Below, piece by piece: positions 37,126 through 59,346 of a stretch of 64,000 nt of DNA. Where the stretch lies: the NCBI GenBank assembly GCA_947502835.1, contig CANNBJ010000001.1, positions 558,001 to 622,000 on the forward strand, in the 5' to 3' direction. The DNA comes from Bdellovibrionales bacterium (lineage in GTDB: Bacteria; Bdellovibrionota; UBA1018; CAIMNF01). The notes under the pieces are model-generated. The model made no database searches. It was not told the origin of the DNA and saw only the letters and a program-made list of their open reading frames with translations. The position numbers were made by a program, and so were the translations under genes. Position 1 is the first letter of the stretch. Each line of letters starts with the position of its first letter.

Positions 37126-37782
37126 TTAATCCTTTCTGGTGGCTACGACCGAGTAAATCGAAGCATTGGTTGAAGGCTGAACTTCACCGATGACTGCTTC
37201 CACTTTTTCCATCTGACCGTAAGAAATCCATTCCGACATACGGCGAGAGTAAGCAGGACTATTTTCTTGGTTTCCACCGCTCACTTCACCAATTCGGAGT
37301 CGATAAAGATTTGAGCAAGATTCAGATGCAATAGTGATCTCTCCATTCATGATGTCGGGTCGAATTTGAGAGACTCTACACCCCACAGCGCTCGTTGAAG
37401 ACGACGGATTCCACTGAATCACTTGGACGTTCAGATAAAGATTATTGAGGTCGGATGCGATTTCCTCAAGTTGCCTGACACGATCCGTTTTGTAAGGAGG
37501 AAGGCTCGGAGAAAAAGTTATTCTGAAATTGATCTCTCCGATTTCGGATTGAAAAGAGCCTTCGTACTTGCCTTTGAGCGCCTGATAGAAACGATGACGT
37601 TTCTCTAGGTCTTCTTCCATGGATCTTGATTTTTTGAACAAATTTTCGTTTTCGGCTTTAATCTGTGCTTCGGTTTGAACCGCAGAGACTTCCGAGAGCC
37701 TTTCATCTCCTTGGCAACCACTGAGGAGGAGTGCGCCTCCTAGAGCGATCATCCCGAACATTGGGTGGGTTTTCATATTCAT
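37126..37782 (-). CDS. Hypothetical lipoprotein of the metal operon
   Basis: 218 residues with lipobox LLSGC (Cys23) and a helical start (EAQIKAENENLFKKSRSMEEDLEKRHRFY, in part), then a mixed domain with two Cys (VGCRVS, SCSNLY). No recognised family. It overlaps czcA by four bases and precedes the TolC-like gene by five. A role as accessory to the efflux pump is inferred from position. Confidence 0.65.
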   Translation of the reverse strand: MNMKTHPMFGMIALGGALLLSGCQGDERLSEVSAVQTEAQIKAENENLFKKSRSMEEDLEKRHRFYQALKGKYEGSFQSEIGEINFRITFSPSLPPYKTDRVRQLEEIASDLNNLYLNVQVIQWNPSSSTSAVGCRVSQIRPDIMNGEITIASESCSNLYRLRIGEVSGGNQENSPAYSRRMSEWISYGQMEKVEAVIGEVQPSTNASIYSVVATRKD

Positions 37783-40700
37783 ACTTCTTTTCCTTTCTTA
37801 AACAGTTTTGAGAACAAATTTGATCCAGACTTTTCTTCAAACCAAAGATAGAGGGTCGGCAAAATGAGAAGCGTCAGTAACGTCGATGAAATCACGCCAC
37901 CAATGACGACCGCTGCTAGCGGCCGTTGCACTTCGGCTCCGATGCCTGTTGAAAGCACCATGGGGATGAATCCAAAGATATCCACGAGTGCTGTCATAAG
38001 GACGGGCCTTAGACGCGCCATCGTTCCTTCTTTCACTCGTTCTCTAGGCGACAATCCTTTTTCCTTCAGCTGATTGAAGAAATTGACGAGCACGACACCA
38101 TTCAAGACCGCGATACCCGACAGCGCGATGAAGCCAACGCCTGCTGAAATACTAAATGGAAGTTGAAATGCCATGAGTCCAAGAACTCCACCCACTAAAG
38201 CCAGTGGCGCGCACATGAATACCAAGGCCGTCTCCCAGATATTTCTGAATGCGGCATAGATCATGAGAAGAACGAGCATGAGCGCAAGTGGAGTTAGTAC
38301 AAAGAGCCTTTTTCTTGCCTCTTGGAGGTTTTTAAAGTTTCCACCCCACTGAATCGTATAGCCTTCAGGGAGCTTCACTTTACTTTTGACGACTCCCTGT
38401 GCTTCATTCACAAAGCTTTCTGTGTCTCGCCCACGCAAGTTAATGAGAACGGCGGAGCGCCTGTGACCTTCTTCACGAGAAATCGAAGCATACGTTTCGC
38501 TAAATCCAACGTTTGCTACTTCTTTAAGTGGTGTTGTGGCATTCGCTGCTAAACCCACAGGTAGATTTTCGACTTCTTCGATATTGGACCTGATTGAATC
38601 ATCGAGCCTTACGATGATGGGGAATCGCTTATCCTTTTCAAAAAAGAATCCTGCTTCTTCACCGCCTAGAGCGATACTGATCGTTTCAAGCACTTCTTGT
38701 GCAGACATTCCCAGGCGTCTTAGAATCTCTTTTTTTGGTTCTGCTCGAAGCACGGGAGAGGTGCCGGCTAGATCCATCTCTACGTCACCAGCGCCACTAA
38801 CACCTTCGACTGTTTCTTTGATCTCTTTACCTAGATTCATGAGCACTTTCAGATCAGGACCAAAGATTTTAACGCTGACATCGGCTCTTGTTCCTTCTAA
38901 AAGCTCATTGAATCGCATTTGAATTGGCTGTGAGACGAGATAACGCTGGCCGGGAACATTCTTTTCAAGATCGGCAATCAGGTTTTGAATGAATTCAGGT
39001 TTTGGTTTTTCTTTCAGCATCACATAAGTGTCAGCGACGTTTACACCCATGGGGTCAGTCGCAACTTCGCTGGTTCCCATACGGGAGAAAACGGTTCTGA
39101 CTTCGGGATATTTTCTAATCACTTCTTCGGCTTTTAACTGCACAGCAAGAGATTGATCCAAGCTCGCATTCACCGGTCTAATCATATGAAAAGCGTAAGA
39201 GCCTTCAGAAAGCTGCGGAAGGAACTCACCGCCTAAGAAGCTAAAGAAAATGCCTCCAGCAGAAATGGCGCTCACCGCAATGATTGTAACTAGTTTTCGC
39301 TTAGGCAGCAGTACAGCCAAGAGTCTTCCATAGTGGTCTCGAATCCATTCCATGATCTTGGGCTCTTTGTCTTCGGCTTTACTGGATAAGAAAATGCTTG
39401 CAAGTGCTGGAGCCAGTGTAAATGACAAGCAAAGAGCCGCAATCACTGCGATAGAGAAAGTTGTCGCCATCGGGTGAAACATTTTTCCTTCGATTCCAAC
39501 CAGCCCAAAGATTGGAAGAAAAACGATCACGATGATGATTTCACCAAAACCTGCTGCGGTACGAATCTCAACTGAAGCGTCATAAACCGCTTGTCGTCGC
39601 TCATCGAGTGTAAGCGCCCGTTTTAAGGCATGGGTTCTTTCGTGAATGATCCTAACGCAGTTATCGAGAACGATGACCGTTCCATCGACGATGATTCCGA
39701 AATCAAGAGCGCCAAGACTTAAGAGGTTCCCAGAAACTCCGAGTGGCTTCATGACAACGAAAGTAATCAAAAGCGTAACGGGGATCGTAACTGCTGTAAT
39801 GAGGGCCGCTCTTACGTTACCCACCAAAAGCAGAAGTACGATCACAACCAGAAACGAGCCCATGAGAAGGTTATGCTCGACTGTTCCGAGTGTAGCGTCC
39901 ACCAGTTCGCTTCGATTATATACCGTTTCGATTTTCACGCCTTTTGGGAGTTCGGACCTGATTTCTTGAACTCTTGCATCGACTCGTTTGGAAACAGTTC
40001 TGCTATTTTCTCCAAGTAGCATCATGGCTGTACCCAAGACGGTTTCATTTCCGTTTTGAGTAGCTGCCCCAGTCCTGAGTTCTTTGCCAAGCTTTACAGT
40101 GGCTACATCTTTAATTGAAACCGTCTTGAAGGTTTCAAGAGACTTAATGGGAAGTTCTGCAATATCTTCGATGCTTTCAAATAGCCCAATCCCTTGAACG
40201 AGGTACTGTTCTGAAGTCTGCTGAACGTTACCGCCACCAACGTTCTTATTGGAATTTTCAAGAGCGTTTAGAATGTCACCAAAGTGAACGCCGAATTGGC
40301 TCATTTTTCTAGGGTCAGGCTGAACGTGATACTGCTTCTCATAGCCACCTGAAGAATTCACTTCTGCGATACCTGGGACCGTAAGCAGTCTTGGCTTTAC
40401 AAAGTAGTCTTGAAGAGTGCGAAGCTCGACAAGCTCCAAAAATCTTTTCTCAGGGTCTTTCGATGGATTTTCGTAATCTAATACATACTGATAGATCTCC
40501 CCAAGACCCGTTGAGATTGGGCCTAGCTTAGGAGCTGCTCCCTTAGGCAGGAACCCACTCAGTCCTTGCACTCGCTCGGTCACAAGCTGCCTTGCTCTGT
40601 AGACATCCACCTCATCGCCAAAGACGACAGTGACTTGGCTTAATCCGAATCGAGTGATCGAGCGAACCTGAATCGCTCCTGGCGTTCCACGAAGTGCTGT

Positions 40701-40910
40701 CTCAATAGGAAATGTAACTGTTCTTTCGATTTCCTCCGGGGCCAGACCCTCAACCTGGGTATTGACCTGAACTTGGTTGTTTGTGATGTCAGGAACCGCA
40801 TCAATGGGGAGTGACTGAAATGCGATAAGTCCCGCAATGATTGCGAGAAAGGTCATCACTAGAACGGTTGTGCGGTGGTAAACTGAGAAATGAATAATTT
40901 TATTAATCAT
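37779..40910 (-). CDS. czcA: CzcA-type heavy-metal RND efflux pump
   Basis: 1043 residues, full-length inner-membrane RND pump of the heavy-metal (HME) group with twelve membrane segments and two large periplasmic loops. The N-terminus (LPIDAVPDITNNQVQV) is diagnostic. The proton-relay motif in segment four reads DFGIIVDGTVIVLDN, near residue 403, where CzcA has DFGxxxDGAxxxxEN, so it resembles the Co/Zn/Cd class, with Asp in place of the usual Glu. It would move metals from periplasm or cytoplasm across the outer membrane with an adaptor and an outer channel. It follows the mini-adaptor by 18 bases. Confidence 0.93.
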   Translation of the reverse strand: MINKIIHFSVYHRTTVLVMTFLAIIAGLIAFQSLPIDAVPDITNNQVQVNTQVEGLAPEEIERTVTFPIETALRGTPGAIQVRSITRFGLSQVTVVFGDEVDVYRARQLVTERVQGLSGFLPKGAAPKLGPISTGLGEIYQYVLDYENPSKDPEKRFLELVELRTLQDYFVKPRLLTVPGIAEVNSSGGYEKQYHVQPDPRKMSQFGVHFGDILNALENSNKNVGGGNVQQTSEQYLVQGIGLFESIEDIAELPIKSLETFKTVSIKDVATVKLGKELRTGAATQNGNETVLGTAMMLLGENSRTVSKRVDARVQEIRSELPKGVKIETVYNRSELVDATLGTVEHNLLMGSFLVVIVLLLLVGNVRAALITAVTIPVTLLITFVVMKPLGVSGNLLSLGALDFGIIVDGTVIVLDNCVRIIHERTHALKRALTLDERRQAVYDASVEIRTAAGFGEIIIVIVFLPIFGLVGIEGKMFHPMATTFSIAVIAALCLSFTLAPALASIFLSSKAEDKEPKIMEWIRDHYGRLLAVLLPKRKLVTIIAVSAISAGGIFFSFLGGEFLPQLSEGSYAFHMIRPVNASLDQSLAVQLKAEEVIRKYPEVRTVFSRMGTSEVATDPMGVNVADTYVMLKEKPKPEFIQNLIADLEKNVPGQRYLVSQPIQMRFNELLEGTRADVSVKIFGPDLKVLMNLGKEIKETVEGVSGAGDVEMDLAGTSPVLRAEPKKEILRRLGMSAQEVLETISIALGGEEAGFFFEKDKRFPIIVRLDDSIRSNIEEVENLPVGLAANATTPLKEVANVGFSETYASISREEGHRRSAVLINLRGRDTESFVNEAQGVVKSKVKLPEGYTIQWGGNFKNLQEARKRLFVLTPLALMLVLLMIYAAFRNIWETALVFMCAPLALVGGVLGLMAFQLPFSISAGVGFIALSGIAVLNGVVLVNFFNQLKEKGLSPRERVKEGTMARLRPVLMTALVDIFGFIPMVLSTGIGAEVQRPLAAVVIGGVISSTLLTLLILPTLYLWFEEKSGSNLFSKLFKKGKEV

Positions 40911-40928
40911 GAATCGCCTCCCATCACC

Positions 40929-41432
40929 TTAGTGGTGATGACCTCCTTCTTCTCCAGAGAAGACATCGACTTCAATATTCCTTAAAAAATGAACCCCTTG
41001 GACAGCGATCAAGCCAGTGATCTCGTCGTGTTCAGATTTCACGAAAGCATTCGCGCCTGAGCTACGGACAATGGAAACTTCGACTGGTTTGTAGAATCCG
41101 CCGTTAAAAGTGTAGATAAAACGCTCACGTTTAACGGCTGCGATCGCGGATTTTGGAACTAAAAATGTGTTTCCCTCTTTTTGAAGAGGTGCGGTTTTGA
41201 TCCCTAGATGCTTATTCGCTTCGACTGTAAGTTTAAATCCCTTAGCTTTGGAGGCTTCCAAAACACCTTTGTCTTCTCCGACGTTACTGACCGCAGCTTC
41301 TTCCTCTTTTTCGTCGCCATGATTTTCTTCGGATTCCTCATGGGAGTGAGCTTTCTCGTCATGGTCATCTCCAGAGAAGGCAGGCTGATTGAAAACCAAA
41401 AATCCCATAATTAAGGTGAAAATGAGTTTCAT
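40929..41432 (-). CDS. Miniature CzcB-like adaptor with His-rich N-terminus
   Basis: 167 residues: signal peptide, a His/Glu-rich stretch (residues about 22-50, DDHDEKAHSHEESEENHGDE), and a segment that aligns with the C-terminal part of CzcB-type adaptors: FKLTVEANKHLGIKTAPL, VPKSAIAAVKRERFIYTF and GVHFLRNIEVDVF, ending in GGHHH. Ordinary adaptors have 350-500 residues with a helical hairpin and lipoyl domain; both are missing here. It lies between czcC and czcA, exactly where czcB belongs. A reduced adaptor or metal-delivery protein is inferred. Confidence 0.72.
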   Translation of the reverse strand: MKLIFTLIMGFLVFNQPAFSGDDHDEKAHSHEESEENHGDEKEEEAAVSNVGEDKGVLEASKAKGFKLTVEANKHLGIKTAPLQKEGNTFLVPKSAIAAVKRERFIYTFNGGFYKPVEVSIVRSSGANAFVKSEHDEITGLIAVQGVHFLRNIEVDVFSGEEGGHHH

Positions 41433-42706
41433 AGCTGTTTCTCCTCAAGACGATCAGCGATCATATAAAGATCCCAAAGATTACCCATGACAAAATTTTC
41501 GCTCTGGTGGCGTTGAATCAAAAAATCAACCAGTGCTCGGTGTGCTTCGACAATGAGTGCTGGTGAAACCAGTCCCCGGAAGAAATTTTTCTCAACTTGA
41601 GTGTGTTTTTGATGAAGATTGGATTGTGTAGGAAGGACTGAGAGACGAGATTTAGCAGAATTGATAGTCGTGATCGTTCTTTTGATTTCAAGCTCAACCT
41701 CAGAGGTTTGGATTCTGATTTTGTGCTCAAGCAGGCTTGCCTGCTTTTCAGCAGCCGCTACCTGATACCCATTTTGGTTCCAAACCGGAAAAGGGATGTT
41801 GAGCGCCAGTCCAAATAAGTTCTGCTGTAATGGCCCATCGCGGTTCACGGCCATCATGGGACCGATGCTGATATCTGAAAACGCATCGCCTCTTGCTTGG
41901 AAAGCTGTTGCATGGGCTTGCTTCAGTTCGGCCTGAGATGTGAGAATTTCAGGAGCTTTTTGAGTAAGCGCTTCTGCTTCAAATGAATCGATCTCTTTTT
42001 CGGAAGGCTCTTGGTAAAGAGGTAAAATCTTTTCGTATTTGGAAATATCGAGTTTAAGTGTGGCTTGAAAGAAGTTTAAAACCTGCAACTCTTCATTTTT
42101 CTTTTCAACCAGACGTAACTCGTAATCTCCCTGGGCTAACTTAAAAATTGAGAGTGAGACTTCTTGTTCTGGAGTAAGCCTTGGGCGTCCTTGATACTGC
42201 GCAACGAGTTTTTTGAACGTGTCTGCTGCTTCTTGGATCGCATCAATTTCACCTTGAAGTTGGCGATAGCGATAAAGACCAAGAGCCGTTTGCTTTAAGA
42301 ATTGCCCCTGTTCAATTCGGCTTCTTGCTTGAAACCCAAGGGCATTGGACTCACCGGATAGGATTTGAGCCTGTCTTTTGCCACCCGTCTGAATGGGCTG
42401 GTAGAGGGCTACTTGAACTTGAAGCTGCTCGTTACCAAGGCTTCTTCCTCCCATACCTTGGGATTGGATTTCAGGGTTAAGCCACCTTCTTCCTCCGCGC
42501 CTTGAATCCTCTTCGGCTGATCTCAGGTTTTTTGCTGCAATGAACGCGGGCTGCTTGGTTCGCAAACACCGCATGATGTCTAAGGCTGATTTGATGCCTT
42601 GGCAAAGAGACGCCTCGACTTCCTCGGCCAACGCCATGGATGGAGTAGTTACAGCCAGTAGTACGCACATTAAGTGCGCAGAAATTTTATGACTCAATTG
42701 GCACAC
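41429..42706 (-). CDS. CzcC-type outer-membrane efflux channel
   Basis: 425 residues. N-terminal signal (AHLMCVLLAVTTPSMALA), then the two long helical repeats of the OEP/TolC family (SRIEQGQFLKQTALGLYRYRQL, IRIQTSEVELEIKRTITTINSAKS and others, in part). It is the first gene of the czcCBA-like unit, preceded by a CzcI-like gene, and overlaps the mini-adaptor gene by four bases. Named by context as CzcC. Confidence 0.85.
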   Translation of the reverse strand: MCQLSHKISAHLMCVLLAVTTPSMALAEEVEASLCQGIKSALDIMRCLRTKQPAFIAAKNLRSAEEDSRRGGRRWLNPEIQSQGMGGRSLGNEQLQVQVALYQPIQTGGKRQAQILSGESNALGFQARSRIEQGQFLKQTALGLYRYRQLQGEIDAIQEAADTFKKLVAQYQGRPRLTPEQEVSLSIFKLAQGDYELRLVEKKNEELQVLNFFQATLKLDISKYEKILPLYQEPSEKEIDSFEAEALTQKAPEILTSQAELKQAHATAFQARGDAFSDISIGPMMAVNRDGPLQQNLFGLALNIPFPVWNQNGYQVAAAEKQASLLEHKIRIQTSEVELEIKRTITTINSAKSRLSVLPTQSNLHQKHTQVEKNFFRGLVSPALIVEAHRALVDFLIQRHQSENFVMGNLWDLYMIADRLEEKQL

Positions 42707-43430: not shown

Positions 43431-43958
43431 CTACGAATTTGAAGTCTTTAACCGAAATCCAACCTCCAGCACCAACGCGCCTCCGGCTATCGATCCTAGC
43501 ACCCAAGCTAATGCAAAGCTGGCTACTACGCTGCTTGGGTCCAGCATGATAAAAAAACCAAGGGATAACAATGTAAGCGCTCCAAGTTCTGCGAAGCGAT
43601 GAGAGCGAAGCACTCTTAGTTCTTGCCCCCTTAAGAATGGTGTTGCAGCAATTAAGCTTGTTCCCAAAAAGAACGAACCGCATGCCATCGGACACCCCAT
43701 TGATCCGAGAGACATAAAATAATGCATGATCCCCATTCCGTCACCTAAGATGCGGAAGCCAAACTGGGGGCAAATACTGAGCGTGAAAAGTGCTGAGAGA
43801 AAATGAATTAAGGAAAGCTTTGAGAAGACTCCCCAAGGAGAAACTTTCAAATCTCTTTCGACTAATCCCAAAATCCTTTCAGATACTTCTTTCGGAGGAG
43901 TGACCCCTTCTAAATTTTTGAATTCTTCGAATTCTGATTTCCATTTTTGGTCATTCAT
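43431..43958 (-). CDS. Membrane partner of the ECF sigma factor, probable metal-sensing anti-sigma
   Basis: 175 residues from the ATG at 43958, which lies just after the sigma-factor stop; the longer frame overlaps that gene. A soluble N-terminus of about 50 residues (the expected sigma-binding part) is followed by about five membrane segments. Between the first two runs a Met/Cys/His-rich stretch, GMGIMHYFMSLGSMGCPMACGS, a good candidate for metal binding. Function as anti-sigma is inferred from order and topology. Confidence 0.62.
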   Translation of the reverse strand: MNDQKWKSEFEEFKNLEGVTPPKEVSERILGLVERDLKVSPWGVFSKLSLIHFLSALFTLSICPQFGFRILGDGMGIMHYFMSLGSMGCPMACGSFFLGTSLIAATPFLRGQELRVLRSHRFAELGALTLLSLGFFIMLDPSSVVASFALAWVLGSIAGGALVLEVGFRLKTSNS

Positions 43959-43974
43959 TTTTTTAGCCTCGCTT

Positions 43975-44520
43975 TCATTCCGTATTTGCGCTTCCTGCGT
44001 TACGGAGCTTCTTGATCGCCCGACTGAAGAGTTGTCTGACACTGACCTCAGTTCGTTTTAACTTATCTGCGATCTCGCTATAGGTGAGTTCATCTAAAAC
44101 CCTTAATTTTAATACCTCGCTCTGTTCGGCAGAGAGCTGTTTTAGATCAAGTAGCTCATCTACTTGGGAATACGACGATTGGGGCTCTTTTTGTGACAGC
44201 GGATCTGCAATTTTTTCAACCTCCATTGATGAATCGATTTGGAGTCCCTCTTTAAATCTTCGCTTCTGTTTTACATAATCAAGCAGAACGCTTCTTGCGA
44301 TTACGAATAGCCACTGTTCAAAAAGATACTTTGAATCGTATTGGGAGCGAGAACGGTGAAGCTTCAAAAAGACGAGCTGAAAAACATCATCGGTTTCTTT
44401 TCCGAGCTTCTTTTTTAGGTAGGCGTAAAGCTTAGATGAGTTCTTCTGATAAAGAAGCTCAAAGGCATGGGAGTCCCCATCCTGATAAGCTCTCATCAGT
44501 TCCTCATTTGTTTTAGCCAT
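43975..44520 (-). CDS. ECF RNA polymerase sigma factor
   Basis: 181 residues with sigma region 2 (HAFELLYQKNSSKLYAYLKKK, DDVFQLVFLKLHRSRSQY, FEQWLFVIARSVLLDYVKQKRR) and region 4 (LSAEQSEVLKLRVLDELTYSEIADKLKRTEVSVRQLFSRAIKKL, in part). There is no extra C-terminal domain. Upstream of the gene, and upstream of two rightward genes, lie copies of one promoter motif, so the gene is probably self-activating. It is followed by the gene for its membrane partner. Confidence 0.92.
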   Translation of the reverse strand: MAKTNEELMRAYQDGDSHAFELLYQKNSSKLYAYLKKKLGKETDDVFQLVFLKLHRSRSQYDSKYLFEQWLFVIARSVLLDYVKQKRRFKEGLQIDSSMEVEKIADPLSQKEPQSSYSQVDELLDLKQLSAEQSEVLKLRVLDELTYSEIADKLKRTEVSVRQLFSRAIKKLRNAGSANTE

Positions 44521-44598: not shown

Positions 44599-45069
44599 AT
44601 GGACCTGCCTAAAGCTGTCTTTATCGCGATCCTATCGCTTTTGCCGCTAGGATACGTTTTGGCGCATAAGAATCACTCTCATCAGAGGGCAATGCCCGTG
44701 GAAGCCCCGGCTTTAAAAAAGATCAATTCCGCCTATATACGAGATGTAAAACCCATTTTTCAGAAGAAGTGCTTTGACTGCCATAGCGGCGAGACGCGCT
44801 ATCCCTGGTACGCAAAGCTTCCGATCGCAAAAACGATGATTGAAGGCGATATCCAGGAAGCCAAGTCGCACCTCGATTTCTCAAATGACTTTCCATTTAA
44901 AGGCCATGGATCTCCACAAGAAGATCTTGAGGAAATTTTGAGATCTGTCAAATCAGACGAAATGCCGCCTCTTCGTTACCGAATCCTTCACTGGGGATCG
45001 AAAGTAACCCCAGAGGAAAAAGCCACGATTCAAGCTTGGGTTGCGGAGAGTCAAAAGCCTTTAAAATAA
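44599..45069 (+). CDS. Exported haem-binding-domain protein (Haem_bd type)
   Basis: 156 residues with an N-terminal signal or anchor (AVFIAILSLLPLGYVLA) and a single cytochrome-c-type haem motif, CFDCH, in the context PIFQKKCFDCHSGETRYPWYAKLPI (shown as key parts), followed by FKGHG and DEMPPLRY with a Met that may be the distal ligand. This matches the Haem_bd domain of small periplasmic c-type proteins. Expression from the ECF promoter links it to the metal stress response. Confidence 0.8.
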   Translation: MDLPKAVFIAILSLLPLGYVLAHKNHSHQRAMPVEAPALKKINSAYIRDVKPIFQKKCFDCHSGETRYPWYAKLPIAKTMIEGDIQEAKSHLDFSNDFPFKGHGSPQEDLEEILRSVKSDEMPPLRYRILHWGSKVTPEEKATIQAWVAESQKPLK

Positions 45070-46412: not shown

Positions 46413-48842
46413 CTAAAATTGAATCTGCGCTCCAGCGCCGATGCTTTTTTCGGTGAACATGAGTCCTGCGGCCCATGACCACGTTGGGCCATACATTAGG
46501 CTAATCTCAAACTCCGTATCGCGCTCACCACCCCAATTCGGGCGCCAGCTAAAATCAGCATCCGTAAAAATCGTTTTCGTCCATTGGAAGCGTCTTTCTA
46601 CATCAAAGCGGAATCTTAAATCGTGATTGCGCACGACTACGTCGTGATTGACCGAGACACTGGCTTCAATCAACATCGGAAGGATATAGCCAACGCCTAC
46701 TGTAGCGTAGCCTTTCTCGTTATAAAAAGATCCGCCTCCAAACACGTTAAAGAAATTTGAAAACCATCTACGGTAGTAAATATCGCCTTCAGTTTCCCAC
46801 TGCTGCCCGAAAGTGAAATTCTTCCCTTCGATGTCCGCTGTCTCAATTCGCAGATCGAGCTCATCCCAAGTGCGCATGAGTTTAAATCGCCCGATTGCGT
46901 GGTTACTGGAAGCTTCAAGCTGAGTGTACGTGTAAAGGTGATCGTGAAGATGGGGATCGTGGTGATCGTTTTTCGCCATCTCGGGGGTGAGCTTAAAATC
47001 ATTGTAGCGCACGACTCGCGCCATCCCGGTCTTCATGTGATAAAGATTGTGGCAATGAAGCATCCATTGACCAGGTTCGTTTGCGTAGAGCTCAATCGTT
47101 CTTGTCATATGAGGCGGAACATCGACCGTGTGCTTGAGCGGTGATTTTTCGCCTTTCTCATTAATCACCCGAAAGAAATGCCCGTGAAAATGCATCGGGT
47201 GATGCATCATGGTTTTATTTTCAAACGTAAAGCGCACGATCTCACCACGATTAATCATCAAAAGACGATCTTCTTGAATCGTTTTTCCGTTTAGGTGCCA
47301 GATGTAGCGTTCCATGTCTCCGCCGAGACTGAGCTTCACATCATGAACCTTGGCGTTTTTAGGAAGAGTCGTAGGCTTTATTGCTTCAAGTTTATCGACC
47401 GTGAGCGTTTCGATGGGCTTTGCTCCAGAAGCAGTCTTTAGGTCACGAGCAGAATCGTTTTGCTTAAGCATCGCATCGGACTGAGTGCTCCAGTCGATTC
47501 CACCGCTTGAAGCTTTTTTAGGGGCTTCGGTAGAAGTAGCAGCGTCATGTCCTCCTCCGTGCATCGAATGGTCGGCAGTGGTGCTGTGCCCAGCGTGTTC
47601 ATCTTGATGCGAAGAATGGTTCTCGTGCTCTGAGTGGCCGCCGCCCGCAGCAGGTTCTTCACGCCCAGTTGTGGCTTTCGTTCCATGATCTCCATGAGAA
47701 GAGTGATCTTCTTTGGTTGAAGCTTCCGTATGCCTAGAGTGACTCGTATGAGCACTCATTCCCTCATGACCGCTATGATCTCCGCCGTGCCCTGAGTGCG
47801 CACCATGGCCTGCACCGTGATCCATGGTTGCATAAAGATCGGGATAAGGAACATTGGGGGCCGCTACTTTTTCACCCATTCCAATCCAAGCGGATGCATA
47901 GCCTGTCACGTCCTGAACGGTGGCTCGAATTTCGTAATTCTTATGCGCAGGTACGGTAAATAAAACGTCATAGGTTTCAGCCATCCCCGTGAGAATCTGC
48001 TTGGCTTGCACAGGCTTGATATCCACGCCGTCTGCTGAAATGACAGTCATCGGAACACCCATGCCGACGTAGAAGTAGCTTGAGGCTCCTGCATTGATGA
48101 TCCTAAGCCTAATTCGCTCGCCCGGATGCGCTTTCAGAAGCTGGGAATCGCGCTTTCCGTTAATCAAAAACGCATCGTAACCTACGTCCGAAAGATCCAT
48201 TCCTCCCATTCGGGTCCACTCGTTATAAAGCTGGTTTTTTAAGCCGCCCGCTTGAATGGCTCCAATGTAAGAGCGAACCGTATCTTTTTTGTAGAGATAG
48301 TAGTCACCGTCTTTTCTTAGGTTTCGGATGATATGGTCTGCGTTTTCATCCGACCAATCGCTTAGAACTAAAACTGCGTCTTTATCGTACTGAATGGCCT
48401 TTTTCTTTGGATGAATGATGAACGCGCCATAGACGCCTTTTTGTTCCTGCACCATGGTATGCGAGTGGTACCAGTAGGTTCCGTTTTGCCGGATTTTGAA
48501 CTTAAAGAGTCTGGAAGTGCCTGGATGAATAGGAGGTGTGTTGACGTAAGCGACACCATCTTCTTCAGGGGGCAAAAGAATCCCATGCCAGTGAATCGAA
48601 ACTTCCTCTTTTGGGATTTCGTTTTTAACCAAAATCTCAGCATCATCGCCTTCAGTAAATTCAAGTGTAGGTGCTGGAATCCCGCCATTGACGGTTAAGG
48701 CAAAATCCACTTCCTTTTTGCCGCTTAGATTTACTTTCTCATTTCTGACCGTAAGCTCGTACCGAACGGTCTTTGCCTGAGATTCAGAAATCCCTAAAAA
48801 TAAAGCCGCAAGCATCCAGGAAAACAAAAGGGGGTATCGCAT
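46413..48842 (-). CDS. Multicopper oxidase (CopA/PcoA-like) fused to a CopB-like outer-membrane barrel
   Basis: 809 residues from the ATG at 48842, which has GAGGA upstream and a clean signal peptide; an ATG at 48881 overlapping the ATPase stop is also possible. Residues about 24-330 and 480-620 form the multicopper oxidase, with copper ligands SIHWHG, WYHSH, HPMHFHGHFF and WMLHCHNLYHMKTGM. A His/Gly/Ser-rich insert (about 340-440) interrupts it. From about residue 640, LEASSNHAIGRFKLMRTWDE and strand repeats follow the CopB fold and end in AQIQF, a C-terminal Phe. Normally CopA and CopB are separate periplasmic and outer-membrane proteins. Confidence 0.85.
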   Translation of the reverse strand: MRYPLLFSWMLAALFLGISESQAKTVRYELTVRNEKVNLSGKKEVDFALTVNGGIPAPTLEFTEGDDAEILVKNEIPKEEVSIHWHGILLPPEEDGVAYVNTPPIHPGTSRLFKFKIRQNGTYWYHSHTMVQEQKGVYGAFIIHPKKKAIQYDKDAVLVLSDWSDENADHIIRNLRKDGDYYLYKKDTVRSYIGAIQAGGLKNQLYNEWTRMGGMDLSDVGYDAFLINGKRDSQLLKAHPGERIRLRIINAGASSYFYVGMGVPMTVISADGVDIKPVQAKQILTGMAETYDVLFTVPAHKNYEIRATVQDVTGYASAWIGMGEKVAAPNVPYPDLYATMDHGAGHGAHSGHGGDHSGHEGMSAHTSHSRHTEASTKEDHSSHGDHGTKATTGREEPAAGGGHSEHENHSSHQDEHAGHSTTADHSMHGGGHDAATSTEAPKKASSGGIDWSTQSDAMLKQNDSARDLKTASGAKPIETLTVDKLEAIKPTTLPKNAKVHDVKLSLGGDMERYIWHLNGKTIQEDRLLMINRGEIVRFTFENKTMMHHPMHFHGHFFRVINEKGEKSPLKHTVDVPPHMTRTIELYANEPGQWMLHCHNLYHMKTGMARVVRYNDFKLTPEMAKNDHHDPHLHDHLYTYTQLEASSNHAIGRFKLMRTWDELDLRIETADIEGKNFTFGQQWETEGDIYYRRWFSNFFNVFGGGSFYNEKGYATVGVGYILPMLIEASVSVNHDVVVRNHDLRFRFDVERRFQWTKTIFTDADFSWRPNWGGERDTEFEISLMYGPTWSWAAGLMFTEKSIGAGAQIQF

Positions 48843-48877: not shown

Positions 48878-51331
48878 TCATAGTGACACCTTTTTAAGCC
48901 TAAGCGCATTTCCAATCACGGAAACCGAACTCAAACTCATGGCAAGACTTGCCAGCATGGGGCTTAAAAGGACTCCCGTAAGCGGATAAAGAAGTCCTGC
49001 TGCAATAGGGACGCCTAGCAGGTTATATCCAAAGGCAAACACAAGATTCTGTCTAATGTTTTTCATGGTCGCATGGCTTAGGTGACGGGCACGAACCAGT
49101 CCCATTAAATCTCCTTTAATGAGAGTAATTCCGGCACTTTCTATAGCGACATCCGTTCCTGAGCCCATCGCTACACCTACCTGCGCTTGGGCAAGAGCGG
49201 GAGCATCGTTAATTCCGTCTCCTGCCATGGCAACGAATCGACCTTCGGATTGAAGTTTTTTGACCACTTCCACTTTTTGATGAGGAAGAACATCTGCCTC
49301 AATCTCAGTAATCCCAAGCTTCGTAGCCACGGCTTTTGCAGTCGTTCTACTATCGCCCGTGAGCATCACAAGCCTGATACCTAAAGCCTTCAGCTCCTGA
49401 ATGGCTTCATGCGTGGTTTTTTTAATCGGATCAGCTACTCCTAAAACTCCGACTGCTTTTCCTTCAACGGCAAGAAACAAAACGGTTTGCCCTTCACTAC
49501 GAAGGGATTCAGCAACCACTTTGATCTCTGAAGTATCAATGCCGTCTTTTTCAAGAAGCTTTGCGTTTCCAAGAAGCACTTTTTTACCATGAGCAAGACC
49601 TGTCACTCCCATTCCGGTTACGGATTGGAATTGCGAGATCTCAGGAGCGTGAGTGATGTTTCGTTCCTTTGCACCCTGAAGAATCGCTTTTGCAATCGGG
49701 TGCTCACTTCCTTTTTCAAGCTGAGAGGCCACTCCTAGAATCGCAGCTTCTGTAAAATTAGAAAGCGCTTTTACTGTAACAAGCTTTGGCTTTCCTTCAG
49801 TGAGTGTTCCTGTTTTATCAAAGACAAGAGTATCGACTTTCTCAAAGCTCTCTAGGCTTTCAGCGTTTTTAATCAAGATTCCGGCTTGAGCGCCTCGGCC
49901 AGTGCCCACCATAATTGACATCGGAGTTGCAAGACCCAAAGCACAGGGACAAGCGATAATGACGACTGAAATCGCGTTTACGAGCGCGAAATTAAGCGCA
50001 GGCTCAGGTCCAAAGACAGCCCAAACGATAGCCGTAAGAACAGCTACCCCAATCACTACTGGGACAAAGATCGCGGCTACTTGATCGGCTAAGCGCTGAA
50101 TTTGGGCGCGACTGCGCTGCGCTTGGCTCACCATTTGAACGATCTGAGATAAGAGTGTATCTTTTCCAATTCGCTGAGCCTGCATAAGAAATGATCCAGT
50201 GCCGTTTACCGTCCCACCAGTCACTTTTACGCCTGCTATTTTTTCAACCGGAGTGGGTTCGCCCGAAATCATCGACTCATCGACAAAGCTTGTGCCTTCA
50301 ATGAGAACGCCATCTACCGGAACCTTTTCACCTGGACGGACCCTGAGCAAATCCCCAAGCTTCACGTGCTCAAGCGGGATATCTTCTTCATGGCCGTTTT
50401 CGACTTTTCTAGCAGTCTTTGGAGCAAGACCTAAAAGCGCACGAATCGCACCACTGGTTTGTGATCGCGCTTTCAGCTCTAAAACTTGGCCAAGAAGAAC
50501 CAGAGTCGTAATGACAGAAGCTGCTTCAAAATAAAGTGGCACTCCTGAGTGCGTTCTTAGTGATTCAGGAATTGATCCTGGGAATAAGACTGCAAACAGG
50601 CTGTATCCAAAAGCAGCGATGACACCGATTGCAATCAAAGTGAACATATTGAGATTGCGAGAGCGGATGGATTGATAGCCCCTTTCAAGAAGTGGCCATC
50701 CACCCCAAAGAACTACAGGCAGAGCAAGAATTACTTGAATCCATTTGAATAATGAATCGCCTAAAAACTGGTGAGCAGAAAGCGAAGGGATCATCTCGCT
50801 CATGGCAATTGCAAATAGAGGCACTGAAAAAAAAGCGCTCCATTTAAATCGCTTCGTCATGTCGATCAGCTCATGATTGGGTTCTTCATTTAAGGAAACC
50901 TCTTCAGGCTCAAGCGCCATTCCGCAGATCGGGCAATTTCCTGGACCCTTTTGCCTGATCTCTGGATGCATGGGGCACGTGTAGATTGCGTCCTTTGAAA
51001 CAGGCTTTGCTTCTTTTTCTTCTTCATCCAAAAACGATTTTGGATTTTTCTTAAATTTGCTCAGGCAGTGGGTCGAACAGAAGTGATAGGTTTTTCCTTC
51101 AAACTCAGTACTTCCTGCCGAATCATCAGGATCAACATCCATTCCGCAGACGGGATCTTTTACCGTGTTCTTTTCTGAATGGCTTTCATGCTCATCGTGG
51201 GAGTGATGGCCATGATGGTGGCCATGTCCGTGAGCGTGATGGCTAGAGTGATTTTTTTTAGGTTCGATAGGGCAAGATTGCTCCGAGTCTTTTGGCTGGC
51301 AGCAGCTATGGGATTCCGATTTTGACTTCAT
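48878..51331 (-). CDS. copA: Copper-transporting P-type ATPase (CopA) with YHS and heavy-metal-binding domains
   Basis: 817 residues from the ATG at 51331 (GGAGA six bases before). The cytosolic N-terminus has Cys and His clusters ([20 protein letters not shown]), a YHS domain ([18 protein letters not shown]) and a second CPMHPE/CPICGM heavy-metal-binding module. Eight membrane segments follow with the CPC motif [10 protein letters not shown] near residue 460, phosphorylation [11 protein letters not shown] near 503 and hinge [10 protein letters not shown]. It exports Cu(I). The earlier in-frame start would precede the predicted transcription start. Confidence 0.95.
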
Positions 51332-51355
51332 AATATTCTCCGTTTCACCCTTTAA

Positions 51356-51381
51356 GACGGACACCACCTCCCGTTCTTACA
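51356..51381 (-). promoter_or_regulatory. Candidate ECF promoter of the copper operon
   Basis: On the minus strand TGTAA (51377-51381) and CGTC (51356-51359) are spaced by 17 bases, an arrangement typical of ECF sigma factors. Transcription would start near 51349, 18 bases before the ATG at 51331 with its ribosome site. The neighbouring CorE-like sigma gene is the obvious candidate activator. Confidence 0.45.
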
Positions 51382-51485: not shown

Positions 51486-52073
51486 TTACGAGCAGGTGCA
51501 GTTTAAGCATCCATGCTCAGTGCATGTACCGCAGGTGCGCTCAAGGCTTGTTTTTAGTGCCTGTCTTGCTCGGTGAAGCCTAACGGTGAGGTTGTTTTCC
51601 GTTACCCCTAAATCACGGGCTACTTCAGAAATCGTCTCGCCACCCAGATCAATTCTTCGGATGAGTTCGGCGTAGGTTTCTTTCAGGGTAGGCAAAAGCC
51701 CGTTCATGCACTCGCATACGGCTGCTTCGATCTCATCCATGGGAGCTACTTTCGTTTTTCCATGAACATCAGAAGTCAGCTCAAGCTCCTGATACTTCTT
51801 TTCCTCTGAAGCTTTGGCACGGTAATAATCGGTAAGCGTGTTTTTAATGACCGTAAAGAACCACGCAACAACGCCAGCTTCCTCGACGGAAATCGGAGGA
51901 TGCTCGATCGCCTTTTTCAAGCTCTGTTGCAGAATATCTTCAGCGACTTCTTTGCTCCCCACGCGTTTAGCGAGAAACGATTGAAAACGGCGATGATTCT
52001 CAACAAGAAGCCGAGCAACTGATTCGTCCAGTGGCTGGAGAGCATGGTCTGAGTGGGCCTCGGAATCCTTCAT
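51486..52073 (-). CDS. ECF sigma factor with C-terminal Cys-rich domain (CorE-like)
   Basis: 195 residues. Region 2 (FQSFLAKRVGSKEVAEDILQQSLKKA, WFFTVIKNTLTDYYRAK) and region 4 (ISEVARDLGVTENNLTVRLHRARQAL) are intact. The C-terminus carries C181, C184, C189, C192 and C194 in CGTCTEHGCLNCTC, the Cys-rich metal-sensing tail of the CorE-type (copper-responsive) sigma factors known from myxobacteria. No anti-sigma gene follows, as in that group. It lies upstream of the copper ATPase and oxidase genes in the same orientation. Confidence 0.85.
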   Translation of the reverse strand: MKDSEAHSDHALQPLDESVARLLVENHRRFQSFLAKRVGSKEVAEDILQQSLKKAIEHPPISVEEAGVVAWFFTVIKNTLTDYYRAKASEEKKYQELELTSDVHGKTKVAPMDEIEAAVCECMNGLLPTLKETYAELIRRIDLGGETISEVARDLGVTENNLTVRLHRARQALKTSLERTCGTCTEHGCLNCTCS

Positions 52074-52171: not shown

Positions 52172-52507
52172 ATGGAAATGTATGAAGCCCTGGAAGCTTT
52201 TTCGTCACTGTCTCAAGAAACCCGTCTTCGGGTTTTTAAGCTTTTGATTGAATACGGAAGCGACGGCGTTTTGCCGGGTAAGATCGCTGAGAAGCTCAAG
52301 ATCCCGGACAATACACTTTCCTTTCATCTTTCTCACATGAGTAAGGCAGGTCTCGTCACTTCTAAAAAAGAGGGACGCCAGATCACTTACTACGCAAACT
52401 GCGATTTAATGGACGATTTGATTAAGTATCTCGTCGAGAACTGCTGCTCAAAAGAGGCTAAGTCGAAAGGCAAGGCCAAGAATAACTGTAACGAAAGGAA
52501 GTGCTAA
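52172..52507 (+). CDS. arsR: ArsR-family arsenic-responsive repressor
   Basis: 111 residues. A winged-helix domain (LSQETRLRVFKLLIEYG, LPGKIAEKLKIPDNTLSFHLSHMSKAGLVTSKKEGRQITYYAN, in part) is followed by a tail with Cys (NCCSKE and NNCNERKC), the probable As(III) site since the usual CVC motif in the DNA-binding helix is absent. It is first in an operon with arsI, arsC and an aquaglyceroporin gene, which supports the arsenic assignment. Confidence 0.9.
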   Translation: MEMYEALEAFSSLSQETRLRVFKLLIEYGSDGVLPGKIAEKLKIPDNTLSFHLSHMSKAGLVTSKKEGRQITYYANCDLMDDLIKYLVENCCSKEAKSKGKAKNNCNERKC

Positions 52508-52508
52508 T

Positions 52509-52949
52509 ATGAAACGCTTACATATTCACGTTGGTGTGAAGGATATTGAAAAGTCGGTGCAATTCTACTCGACTCTATTTGGAGTTAAACCCTCTAAACA
52601 GAAAACGGATTACGCAAAGTGGATGCTGGAAGATCCCAGAATCAATTTTGCAATCTCCACTCTCACTAAAACCACAGGAGTCGATCACTTGGGCATTCAG
52701 GTCGATGAGCCTAAGGAACTAGAAGAGATAACCGAGCGCCTGAAAAAAGCAGACTTGGGAGTCTATGATGAAGGTGAAACGACCTGTTGCTACGCCAGAT
52801 CCAATAAGGCATGGGTTGAAGATCCAGCAGGAGTAGCATGGGAAGCATATCAAACCATGGCTGATGTAGAAGTCTTCAAAGAAAAGACGGAAGATTCGGA
52901 TGCCGCGTGCTGCGCAACCGATGACGCTTCTGAATCAAGCTGTTGCTAG
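52509..52949 (+). CDS. arsI: ArsI-type C-As lyase (VOC family)
   Basis: 146 residues of the vicinal-oxygen-chelate fold. The N-terminal HIHVGVKDIEKSVQFYSTLFG, metal-ligand region GVDHLGIQV, the Cys pair in ETTCCYARSNKAWVEDPAGVAWE (C93/C94, with the last Glu as ligand) and a Cys-rich tail (AACCATDD, SSCC) match ArsI/CadI. ArsI cleaves the carbon-arsenic bond of organoarsenicals. It follows arsR by one base. Confidence 0.88.
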   Translation: MKRLHIHVGVKDIEKSVQFYSTLFGVKPSKQKTDYAKWMLEDPRINFAISTLTKTTGVDHLGIQVDEPKELEEITERLKKADLGVYDEGETTCCYARSNKAWVEDPAGVAWEAYQTMADVEVFKEKTEDSDAACCATDDASESSCC

Positions 52950-52952
52950 ACT

Positions 52953-53369
52953 ATGAAACTCTTATTCATGTGCGTAGCGAATTCTGCGAGGTCTCAGCTT
53001 GCGGAAGGACTGGCTAAAAAAGTCTTCCCGCAGGCTGAGATTCAAAGTGCCGGATCTCATCCCGGTAAACTGAACCCCTATGCTGTCGCGGTAATGAAGG
53101 AGATCGGCCTTGATATTTCGAAGCACTATTCGAAGTCAGTCGAGGATCTTTCCCCCGCGTTCTTAGAAAACCTAGACTACGTTATTACCCTTTGCGCGGA
53201 AGAAGTTTGTCCAGTTCTGCTCTCCAAAGCGAAAAAGCTTCATTGGCCGCATCCTGATCCAGCATCAAAAACTTCCCTCACAGATAACGAAATGCTCACA
53301 CGTTTTAGAAGCGCACGAGACGCTATTCTAAAGAAGCTCGAAGAATTCAAAAAGGAAGTGAAGGCATGA
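52953..53369 (+). CDS. arsC: Arsenate reductase (low-molecular-weight phosphatase type)
   Basis: 138 residues. The P-loop CVANSARSQ (C7, R13) is at the N-terminus, the redox Cys pair is in TLCAEEVC near residue 83, and the Asp motif HWPHPDPASK near 107. These are features of thioredoxin-coupled ArsC enzymes that reduce arsenate to arsenite. It overlaps the next gene by four bases. Confidence 0.92.
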   Translation: MKLLFMCVANSARSQLAEGLAKKVFPQAEIQSAGSHPGKLNPYAVAVMKEIGLDISKHYSKSVEDLSPAFLENLDYVITLCAEEVCPVLLSKAKKLHWPHPDPASKTSLTDNEMLTRFRSARDAILKKLEEFKKEVKA

Positions 53370-54010
53370 ATGCGCTTTTAGCTGAGTTCCTAGGAACCGC
53401 AGGTCTTCTTATTGTAGTTGTAGGATCTGGAATAATGGGGGAATCGCTTTCTCAAGGAAATGCTGCAATCGCTCTACTAGCGAATTCTCTAGCTACCGGG
53501 GCAGGACTCTACGCGCTCATTCAAACTTTCGGACACATATCGGGGGCACATTTTAATCCGGCGGTGAGTTTTATTGAATGGCTCTGGAAAAAACTGAAAA
53601 CAAAGGATTTGATTTTGTACATTTCAGTTCAGATTTTAGGCGCTATCGTGGGCGTGATTCTTACTCATGCGATGTTCGGGCAAAGACTCTTGCAGTTCTC
53701 CACCCACGATCGCGGTGGCTTTAGATTTCTTCTCTCTGAAGTGATTGCAACTTTAGGCCTTATCCTGGTGATCGGTCTCTCTGGAAAAAAGAATGTTGAA
53801 AAGACCCCAGCCGCTGTTGCAACCTACATTACAGCAGCCTATTGGTGCACTTCCTCAACCTCGTTTGCAAATCCTGCTGTGACCATCGCAAGAAGTTTCA
53901 CCGATACCTTTTCGGGAATCCTTTGGACGGGAGTGCCGAGCTTTATTGCTGCTCAATTTCTGGGCGTAGGTCTTTCCTGGCTATGTTTGAGGTTGACTGC
54001 CAAGCGGTGA
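53366..54010 (+). CDS. Aquaglyceroporin/arsenite channel (AqpS-like)
   Basis: 214 residues with six membrane segments and two NPA boxes, HFNPAVSF and FANPAVTIARSF. The MIP family channel sits last in the ars operon instead of ArsB or Acr3, the arrangement described for AqpS, where arsenite leaves the cell by facilitated diffusion. There is no other arsenite efflux gene here, so it is the likely exit route. Confidence 0.9.
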   Translation: MNALLAEFLGTAGLLIVVVGSGIMGESLSQGNAAIALLANSLATGAGLYALIQTFGHISGAHFNPAVSFIEWLWKKLKTKDLILYISVQILGAIVGVILTHAMFGQRLLQFSTHDRGGFRFLLSEVIATLGLILVIGLSGKKNVEKTPAAVATYITAAYWCTSSTSFANPAVTIARSFTDTFSGILWTGVPSFIAAQFLGVGLSWLCLRLTAKR

Positions 54011-56444: not shown

Positions 56445-58172
56445 TTAAAGGCTTTCTATTATATCTTCAAATAATGGAATTTGAAGCCCACGAACTCTAC
56501 TAGGCGACTTCTCAATAACTACCGCCTGACCGATTCTAAGCTGCTTAAGAACGTCATGCTCGATCTGCATTTGCTTAGCCTCTCGCATATTACCCATACC
56601 CGTTCGGTTCGCTATAAGCTCTCCTGAGACCTGGTAGCTCTGCTTTAATGTATCGAAGGTGCCAGCAGTGGCGCAGAACTCTTCAACGGTCTCATGGTCA
56701 TCCATGCGAAGACCTATTTTAGTCATCGTATTAGAAATCACCTGCCGCCGAAATTCAGGAGTAACAGCATCCATATCTTCAAGGCCCTGACAGAAAGCAT
56801 GGATTCCAAACTTCGCACCCCTGGATTGTTTTAGGAATTCAATGAATTCCCGAGAAGCAAAACTTCCAAACTCGTCGATGAAGATGGGAAAGAAAATACG
56901 GTCATTCTCATTTGGCTCACTCTTATAAACTTCAGAGGACATGCTTTTTAAATCCTCGATAATCATTCTTCCCAAACGTCTAGCTGAGTCCCCATTTCCA
57001 AGCGTGTCGAGTTGAAAATAAGCAATGCCTCCCGTTTTTCTAATTTGCCTAAGATCAATTTCGTTCTGAGATTTCTCAAACGACAAAAGATGCCCGAAAG
57101 TTGGATTGTTCAAAATTGAAATTTGAGCTCCAAGACCCGAAAGTTCTTCTTCCTTGGCCTTAGAAAAAAAAGGACTGATGAGATGAAAAAGCTCTAGCGC
57201 ACGCTGATTTCCAGAATCGAATTTTTCCTGAAGCTGCTTCAGTATCGCCGCTCTTTCTTCCTTCGCTAAAAGAATCTTTGAAACTCGCTCCAGGTTTAGC
57301 GGAATACCCAATAACTCCGTACATGCAGTGAATGCCGTCAGAAAACTTGCTGATACGTTTTGATAATAGGGCTCTGACCAAACAAAAGCCTCCATCATCC
57401 GATCTTTAAGTTGGTTTGCATTCCCGTGTTTTAGAGGGTTGTAATTTGCAGAAATCGTCGGAGCAGACATAGAAAAAACCTGAAGTCGGCTTTCAAAGTC
57501 TTCACTCAAACGATTTCCGTACTCCCGGATTAATTCCAATGACGAGCTTTCGCCTTTTGGGTCAATCACAACACAAGGCTGGCGATGGCGAATGGCATGA
57601 AGAATCAGATTCGTCATTAAATTAGTCTTACCTGTTCCAGTCGCGCCAATGACTAGAACGTGAGCAGAGCGCTTCTTCTGCGGTAAAGCGATTACTTCTT
57701 CCGTTTTTACGTCGTGCCCAAGTGGAACTAGATCGTGCCTATAAAAAACATCTGCGATGCTTGCGTTACTTTTTCTGAGATCAATAAAATCCCTAGTACG
57801 CAGACCCTTTTCTTCGGACCGAAAAGACAGAATAAAGGGAGTCAGTGCATGACTTAAGAATAAAAGAGCACTCCAGATAGACGCCACACGAGCACAAATC
57901 AGAAAATTCTTATTTGCTTTAAGAAGATCAACATCATAAAGCGGAAATGGATCAACGAACGAGATCCAGAAAAGAGCTACAAAAAATACTCCCGCTAAGG
58001 GAATTAAAACATTCGCCCTAAAACGAAATTTTTCGTTTCGTGAGTTTCTCCAGCGAACCCACCAATAAATTGCGACTGGAAGGAAAGAAATGGTAACTGT
58101 AGCTATTGCAAGACCTGCAACTGCCTTTAAAATTTCCTCATCACGAGAGTTAGTATCGCCCACTGCCCACAC
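56445..58172 (-). CDS. Type IV coupling protein (TraD/VirD4-like)
   Basis: 575 residues. Three or so membrane segments at the N-terminus (about 16-38, 50-70 and 90-110) are followed by a large ATPase with Walker A GATGTGKTNL near residue 175 and Walker B FFPIFIDEFGSF near 430, both characteristic. It links relaxosome and secretion channel during conjugation. Its start overlaps the upstream gene by 23 bases. Confidence 0.9.
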   Translation of the reverse strand: MWAVGDTNSRDEEILKAVAGLAIATVTISFLPVAIYWWVRWRNSRNEKFRFRANVLIPLAGVFFVALFWISFVDPFPLYDVDLLKANKNFLICARVASIWSALLFLSHALTPFILSFRSEEKGLRTRDFIDLRKSNASIADVFYRHDLVPLGHDVKTEEVIALPQKKRSAHVLVIGATGTGKTNLMTNLILHAIRHRQPCVVIDPKGESSSLELIREYGNRLSEDFESRLQVFSMSAPTISANYNPLKHGNANQLKDRMMEAFVWSEPYYQNVSASFLTAFTACTELLGIPLNLERVSKILLAKEERAAILKQLQEKFDSGNQRALELFHLISPFFSKAKEEELSGLGAQISILNNPTFGHLLSFEKSQNEIDLRQIRKTGGIAYFQLDTLGNGDSARRLGRMIIEDLKSMSSEVYKSEPNENDRIFFPIFIDEFGSFASREFIEFLKQSRGAKFGIHAFCQGLEDMDAVTPEFRRQVISNTMTKIGLRMDDHETVEEFCATAGTFDTLKQSYQVSGELIANRTGMGNMREAKQMQIEHDVLKQLRIGQAVVIEKSPSRVRGLQIPLFEDIIESL

Positions 58173-58893
58173 CTAAAAAATCAAAGACCGTTTGTGAGCC
58201 CCGGAATCTTGAAAAGACTTTAGACGGCTTATTTGTTAGGGCAAAACCGATCTTTGGAAACCTGGCAGCTTTTTCCAAGAGATCTTCATACAAAGTTTCA
58301 TTCTCACAAAAATAAACAATCCGCTCATATCCAGATCTTTCGTAACGAGAAAAACGTTCAAAGTATCGAAGATTGCTCTTTTGATTCCGCTCTAGTTCAA
58401 ATGCATAGCTTCGGCCTTGGACCCTCCAAACCAAGTCGGGAATTGGAATGTCTTCTATAGATCCAAGTCGAAGCTCCTCTAGGCGTATTTCAGGATCCGA
58501 AAGATAAATACCCTCGGGAGGAAGCGTCTTTTCAAGAAATGTCCTAAGCTCATTAAGCCCTAGTTGGTGCTGGGCGAACATAGGAGCAACAATCGTCAAG
58601 GAATGCTTCGCTTTTGTTTTAAACCGCGCTCCCAACGAATACACTTTCAGGCGCTCAACGTTTCGCCTTTCTTCCCTTAGTTTTTTTACCAAAGGGAGCA
58701 TCTTTGACGGAACCGCCGAAGCAAAACTCAGTAATAGAGCGGATTCGACATACCCGTTTTTTAGCAAAGGCCTCACTCTAGTCCAAAAACATTCTTTGTT
58801 TGGAAAAAACCGTTCAGTAAGCTGATCGGATGTTGCAAGACCCTGCTCTGATAAATATTCCATCAATTGAAGATCTCGAACCGTAAGCCTCAA
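58150..58893 (-). CDS. Replication-relaxation-like winged-helix protein
   Basis: 247 residues. The N-terminus (MRLTVRDLQLMEYLSEQGLATSDQLTERFFPN, key elements) and PEIRLEELR, IPIPDLVWRVQGRSYAFELERNQKS fit the replication-relaxation/MobC-like family found in conjugative and mobilisable elements, where the wHTH binds near oriT. It lies just before the coupling-protein gene. The assignment is by pattern, no relaxase being in the window. Confidence 0.65.
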   Translation of the reverse strand: MRLTVRDLQLMEYLSEQGLATSDQLTERFFPNKECFWTRVRPLLKNGYVESALLLSFASAVPSKMLPLVKKLREERRNVERLKVYSLGARFKTKAKHSLTIVAPMFAQHQLGLNELRTFLEKTLPPEGIYLSDPEIRLEELRLGSIEDIPIPDLVWRVQGRSYAFELERNQKSNLRYFERFSRYERSGYERIVYFCENETLYEDLLEKAARFPKIGFALTNKPSKVFSRFRGSQTVFDFLGVGSGRY

Positions 58894-59282
58894 GCAACAC
58901 CTGCCTCAGTTCGTTCAGTTTTTCGCTTCTTGCTTGATGAGTCGGAACCAGCACGTTGCTGTTTTTCTAATCCTCGCTTCGCTTTCTTAATTAAAGCCAT
59001 CATCAGTACAGGATCGCTCTTAGCCTGCTCAAAGATAAACGTATCTGGAGTCAGTCGTTCAATTTGTCGATTCCAATATCGCTCATCCACTCGTTCAAAG
59101 AGTTCTTGAAAGATTTCCTCCAACTTAATGTCTGCTCCGCGCTCTTTAAGCACTTGTAGTGTTTCATTTGCTTTTGAAGCTACGTCTTCGGGCAACGAGA
59201 CTCTCTGCAAAGAACTCTTTGTCTCTGACTTCCTTTTATTTTTATTCTCTTCACTTCCAATAGATTCAATTTCAGTATTCAT
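58890..59282 (-). CDS. Small RHH-like protein of the conjugation operon
   Basis: 130 residues. A charged start is followed by LQRVSLPEDVASKANETLQVLKERGADIKLEEIFQELF (in parts), a strand-helix-helix arrangement reminiscent of ribbon-helix-helix proteins that act in relaxosomes. It ends in a Lys/Arg/Ser tail. A strong AAGGAG ribosome site precedes the ATG at 59282. The gene overlaps the next by four bases. Function inferred. Confidence 0.6.
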   Translation of the reverse strand: MNTEIESIGSEENKNKRKSETKSSLQRVSLPEDVASKANETLQVLKERGADIKLEEIFQELFERVDERYWNRQIERLTPDTFIFEQAKSDPVLMMALIKKAKRGLEKQQRAGSDSSSKKRKTERTEAGVA

Positions 59283-59346
59283 ATTTTCTCCTTTTTTAGT
59301 TAATTTTTGAGTTCAGCTCATCCAGTCGAAATCTAGTTCCTCATAG

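Follow-up and report, generated by a model that had tools for sequence, protein, structure and literature searches.

A CopA/PcoA-type multicopper oxidase continuous with a predicted CopB/PcoB-like outer-membrane barrel in a Bdellovibrionales bacterium

The window analysed here is a stretch of 64,000 nucleotides from a Bdellovibrionales bacterium, a relative of predatory bacteria (contig CANNBJ010000001.1). One of its genes appears to encode two partners of copper resistance, an oxidase (CopA or PcoA) and an outer-membrane barrel (CopB or PcoB), as a single polypeptide, which raises the questions of whether the fusion is genuine and what such a protein would do with copper. The gene is complete (Table 1). 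Its product consists, from N- to C-terminus, of a signal peptide, a CopA/PcoA-type multicopper oxidase with a His-rich insert, a His-rich linker and, at the C-terminus, a domain of some 175 residues whose last residue is Phe. The unbroken run from oxidase into tail and the terminal Phe, both claimed in the original prediction (which did not give the strand), are borne out by a frame of 809 codons on the minus strand, and the Phe is conserved among homologous tails. A second possible start in the same frame, the ATG at 48881, lies 13 codons before that at 48842 and shares the sequence ATGA with the end of the preceding copper ATPase gene, whose stop codon it overlaps. The ribosome-binding sequence is plausible for both ATGs, and the start at 48842 is preferred because the signal peptide opens the protein directly in most relatives.

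Table 1. Positions of the fusion gene, its parts and the adjoining operon genes in the window
Feature	Position	Strand	Residues or length	Basis or remark
Oxidase-barrel fusion gene, complete	46413..48842	(-)	809 aa	One unbroken frame, 48842→46413
Signal peptide, Sec type	48774..48842	(-)		MRYPLLFSWMLAALFLGISESQA/KTV, twin-arginine motif absent; read from the sequence and comparison with relatives
Cu-oxidase_3 domain	48402..48749	(-)	32-147	Pfam; HWHG and HSH ligands
Cu-oxidase domain	47889..48200	(-)	215-318	Pfam
His-rich insert, boundary of oxidase domains 2 and 3	47433..47825	(-)	about 340-470	Low conservation
Cu-oxidase_2 domain	47001..47330	(-)	505-614	Pfam; HPMHFH and HCHNLYHMKTGM ligands
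Conserved linker	46935..47000	(-)	615-636	DPHLHDH motif; invariant D/H columns in the tail-family alignment
CopB/PcoB-like outer-membrane barrel domain, predicted	46416..46934	(-)	637-809	C-terminal Phe; family-level homology
CopA-type copper P-type ATPase, upstream of the fusion	48878..51367	(-)		Profile match
ECF sigma factor, Cys-rich C-terminus CGTCTEHGCLNCTCS	51486..52073	(-)		Directly upstream of the ATPase-fusion operon

Profile matches extend over residues 19-614 (Cu-oxidase_3, 1.1e-37; Cu-oxidase, 8.2e-18; Cu-oxidase_2, 5.3e-30; TIGR01480 CopA, 2.5e-115), and the copper-ligand motifs are located at residues 84 (HWHG), 126 (HSH), 548 (HPMHFH) and 596 (HCHNLYHMKTGM). The three cupredoxin domains and four motifs, which are conserved in 14 homologues, supply the T1, T2 and T3 ligands and agree with the complete multicopper oxidase that had been predicted. 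The fusion scores 386 bits against TIGR01480 (NCBIfam, copper resistance multicopper oxidase), below the curated cut-off of 479 that only the two standalone CopAs pass in the phylum; the fused oxidase therefore represents a sister group of the TIGR01480 subfamily and not a strict member. The long His-rich insert described earlier is present, with 21 His within residues 336-480, but is not distinctive, being found in all 14 aligned homologues with a variable sequence and a length of 53-192 residues. Pseudomonas CopA bears Met/His repeats in a comparable region, and an insert of this kind is therefore ordinary.

The C-terminal domain had been read as a CopB-like barrel. A Pfam search with the tail (residues 637-809) gave no match even at an E-value of 10, PF05275 (CopB) included, an outcome from residue 640 on that formally counts against this reading. 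PF05275 had no match in the whole source genome, and sequence searches of the PDB with the tail and with the tail alignment returned neither PcoB nor anything relevant. The part of the claim that stands is carried by the homologous tails. Among 30 diverse tails scanned against Pfam, PF05275 was matched most often, by 5 of the 30 with a best E-value of 6.4e-6, and generic models of outer-membrane barrels came next. For the tail from genome G203, the PF05275 match was 6.5e-5 when genomes were searched and 1.8e-5 by hmmscan, and the Ilyobacter and G140 tails matched at 6.3e-4 and 8.5e-4; a related tail reaches 24.9 bits against a cut-off of 27 bits, the source protein being unmatched. Alignment of the 30 tails with six CopB proteins by hhalign gave an E-value of 8.7e-5 and a probability of 60%; with only 14 close tails it was weak (E-value 0.047). 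The tail-CopB comparison scored 37.7; the highest score among 200 column-shuffled profiles was 25.0, and the reversed profile reached 12.5. Single CopB proteins scored 17.2-30.3 against the tail profile, whereas the E. coli barrels Tsx, OmpT, OmpW, PldA and NanC scored 10.5-16.7. The homology is confined mainly to the central part of the tail (about 100 columns). By an amphipathicity scan the tail has about 13 strand-like windows, compared with 12 for CopB. AlphaFold models of the tail and of the full protein from a 7-sequence alignment had pLDDT values of 34 and 37, too low to be usable, probably owing to too few sequences. Because homologous tails match PF05275 and the profile comparison clearly outscores the controls, both shuffled profiles and E. 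coli barrels, the tail is, on sequence comparison, a divergent CopB/PcoB-like barrel of predicted fold.

The fusion is real, old and widespread. A census with TIGR01480 (about 229 bits or more) over 291 genomes of the phylum identified 65 CopA-type oxidases, 61 of which occupy open reading frames 686-918 codons long and were judged fused by this length. The remaining four comprise two broken genes (one at a contig end, one frameshifted) and two short ones (597 and 618 codons). These two standalone oxidases occur in the only genomes that have a free PF05275 CopB above the cut-off, and in both the copB gene directly follows the oxidase gene. This complementarity of fused and split forms supports the reading of the protein as a single-chain PcoA-PcoB. 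A profile built from 14 tails found matches in 53 of the 291 genomes. The search for the same fusion in related genomes, as proposed with the original prediction, thus showed it to be the rule in the phylum and common in Bacteroidota plasmids, plasmids being the sample taken from Bacteroidota. The fused proteins came from Bdellovibrionota, from plasmids of Hymenobacter, Pontibacter, Mucilaginibacter, Flavobacterium and Spirosoma (Bacteroidota) and from an Ilyobacter plasmid (Fusobacteriota). In an unrooted tree of the oxidase domains only, the 29 fused proteins form a clade apart from the 6 split ones (support 100/100), a pattern that fits one old fusion that later spread. The fused gene is absent from eleven other genomes of the source genus and was therefore probably acquired horizontally in the source genome. 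A fused oxidase gene also lies just upstream of a complete split pcoA-pcoB pair, with one strand used throughout, in G157 (L065 3701-8652), one of the two genomes with a standalone oxidase.

The two forms differ in their export signals. None of 33 fused proteins has a twin-arginine motif (the true N-terminus being uncertain or out of view in a few), whereas a Tat motif is present in five of six split oxidases, the exception being the Acinetobacter form. PcoA-type oxidases are normally exported by Tat, and a polypeptide that ends in an outer-membrane barrel has to pass Sec unfolded. The change from Tat to Sec therefore fits an outer-membrane barrel, and export by Sec would imply that copper is loaded in the periplasm.

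With the single frame, the intact oxidase ligands, the barrel homology, the conservation, the operon context and the Sec-type signal as observed features, the product is probably a single-chain PcoA-PcoB copper detoxification protein, exported by Sec, with a barrel inserted by BAM and a tethered periplasmic oxidase that passes Cu(II) outward. We infer its location and topology, the channelling and the direction of copper flow as follows. The unfolded chain would leave through Sec, and BAM would insert the C-terminal domain in the outer membrane, where it would form a CopB/PcoB-like barrel of roughly 12 strands whose N-terminal side faces the periplasm. In that compartment the oxidase would fold and load copper while anchored at the inner opening of the barrel. 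The co-encoded CopA ATPase would export cytoplasmic Cu(I), the His-rich insert and linker would catch it, and the oxidase would convert it to Cu(II), which would be handed to the barrel pore and cross the outer membrane. The formation of Cu(II) and its passage through the barrel are proposed by analogy with PcoA and PcoB. The PcoB barrel has 12 strands and both of its termini are periplasmic (PMC9210255); the fused oxidase would therefore be tethered at the periplasmic face of the membrane and not at the cell surface, and the surface handling of copper that had been suggested is not supported. Loss of the disordered N-terminal region of PcoB raises cell copper and destabilises PcoA, which suggests docking (PMC12509749).

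The barrel could instead be an outer-membrane anchor only, too short or plugged for copper, with the oxidase alone detoxifying periplasmic Cu(I). The tail is indeed shorter than the PcoB barrel and has no long last loop, and among the PcoB pore residues mapped onto the tail alignment a clear conserved counterpart was found only for E187 and not for the acids E130, E223 and E207; the pore-residue alignment is, however, uncertain, the affinity of the tail is specifically to CopB and not to other barrels, and fused oxidases replace the copA and copB pair in the phylum, so a mere anchor is unlikely. It is harder still to believe that the tail is an unrelated small barrel that replaced CopB and resembles it only generically. 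Some tails do match OMP_b-brl (1.4e-5), DUF2490 (3.8e-5) and other barrel models, and the source tail itself has no match at all, but PF05275 is the commonest and best match among the tails and the E. coli barrels fall far below CopB in the same profile comparison. An error of sequencing or assembly that merged two separate genes, a possibility raised with the original prediction and one for which no supporting point was found, is ruled out to a vanishing likelihood by the recurrence of the same oxidase-tail junction in complete plasmids and across dozens of genomes assembled independently of one another. The single-chain PcoA-PcoB also allows a more far-reaching view, in which an ancient, phylum-spanning, Sec-exported Cu(I) oxidase-pore would pass oxidised copper straight into its own outer-membrane pore, the oxidase serving an outer-membrane exporter as its metal-delivery step; this view is tentative and somewhat doubtful.

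The fused PcoA-PcoB architecture is already known. It was reported in five Legionella species by Hernandez-Montes in 2012 (PMC3548706), where one polypeptide comprises PcoB and a multicopper oxidase of PcoA type; that report is a single sentence, concerns Gammaproteobacteria and is likened here by description. The multicopper oxidase G2EDV6 of Bizionia argentinensis, described in 2024 (PMC11213822), likewise contains a signal peptide, three Cu-oxidase domains and a porin-like C-terminus (residues 611-809) with some similarity to PcoB, but belongs to Bacteroidota, has no experimental study and is likened by its published description. These two papers and the 61 long frames of the phylum show that the fusion is not unique. 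The split PcoA/PcoB (CopA/CopB) systems of E. coli, Klebsiella plasmids and Caulobacter share a homologous oxidase (about 40% identity), a homologous barrel and an adjoining copper ATPase; unlike the fusion, they consist of two genes, the oxidase is usually exported by Tat, and a disordered N-terminal region rich in His and Met belongs to PcoB itself. The PcoC-PcoD fusion (YcnJ, PMC7558416) also joins two Pco partners in one chain, but these are other components and are located in the inner membrane. In the open-access literature, no report was found of the fusion in Bdellovibrionota, of the complementarity of fused and split forms or of the Tat-to-Sec difference.

Both the cooperation of PcoA with PcoB and the direction of copper through PcoB are debated (PMC9210255, PMC12509749), with uptake favoured in PMC9210255 and efflux versus uptake in dispute between the two papers, and a one-chain form bears on both questions. 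The natural fusion fixes the PcoA:PcoB stoichiometry at 1:1, holds the oxidase at the periplasmic face of the barrel and provides structural studies of the two partners with a stable construct. That one gene replaces copA and copB in the phylum is evidence that both act as one unit, and supports the view that the usually separate PcoA and PcoB do so as well.

The neighbours of the fused gene vary in relatives: many have a CopA-type ATPase, and further neighbours are a haem-binding-domain protein, MerR regulators and, in some cases, an ECF sigma factor with its partner. The ECF sigma factor upstream of the ATPase gene in the window is likely the regulator of the operon, and it may resemble the metal-sensing ECF sigma factors of CorE type, which have a Cys-rich domain. 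At 43431-44520, a second ECF sigma factor gene overlaps a gene for a small membrane protein with no Pfam match, which is likely an anti-sigma factor. In L022 and L024, homologues of this pair directly precede the fused oxidase, and a homologue of the sigma factor lies near it in L079. The haem-binding-domain protein encoded at 44599-45069 (PF14376, 4e-32) recurs beside the fused oxidase in L021, L022, L024, L025, L069, L072 and L079.

Other genes of the window may also be concerned with metals. Those at 52172-54010 were read as encoding an ArsR-like regulator, a glyoxalase-fold protein with a Cys-rich end, an ArsC-type phosphatase and an aquaglyceroporin, and likely form an arsenic resistance cluster. 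Conjugation-type genes at 56445-60246 encode a TrwB/TraG-like coupling protein, a Replic_Relax protein and a TrbI-like protein; their homologues adjoin the fused oxidase in L070, and such genes suggest a mobile metal-resistance element. Beside the copper operon, an RND efflux pump (ACR_tran, 3e-271) and an outer-membrane efflux protein are encoded at 37779-42706 and probably constitute a metal efflux system.
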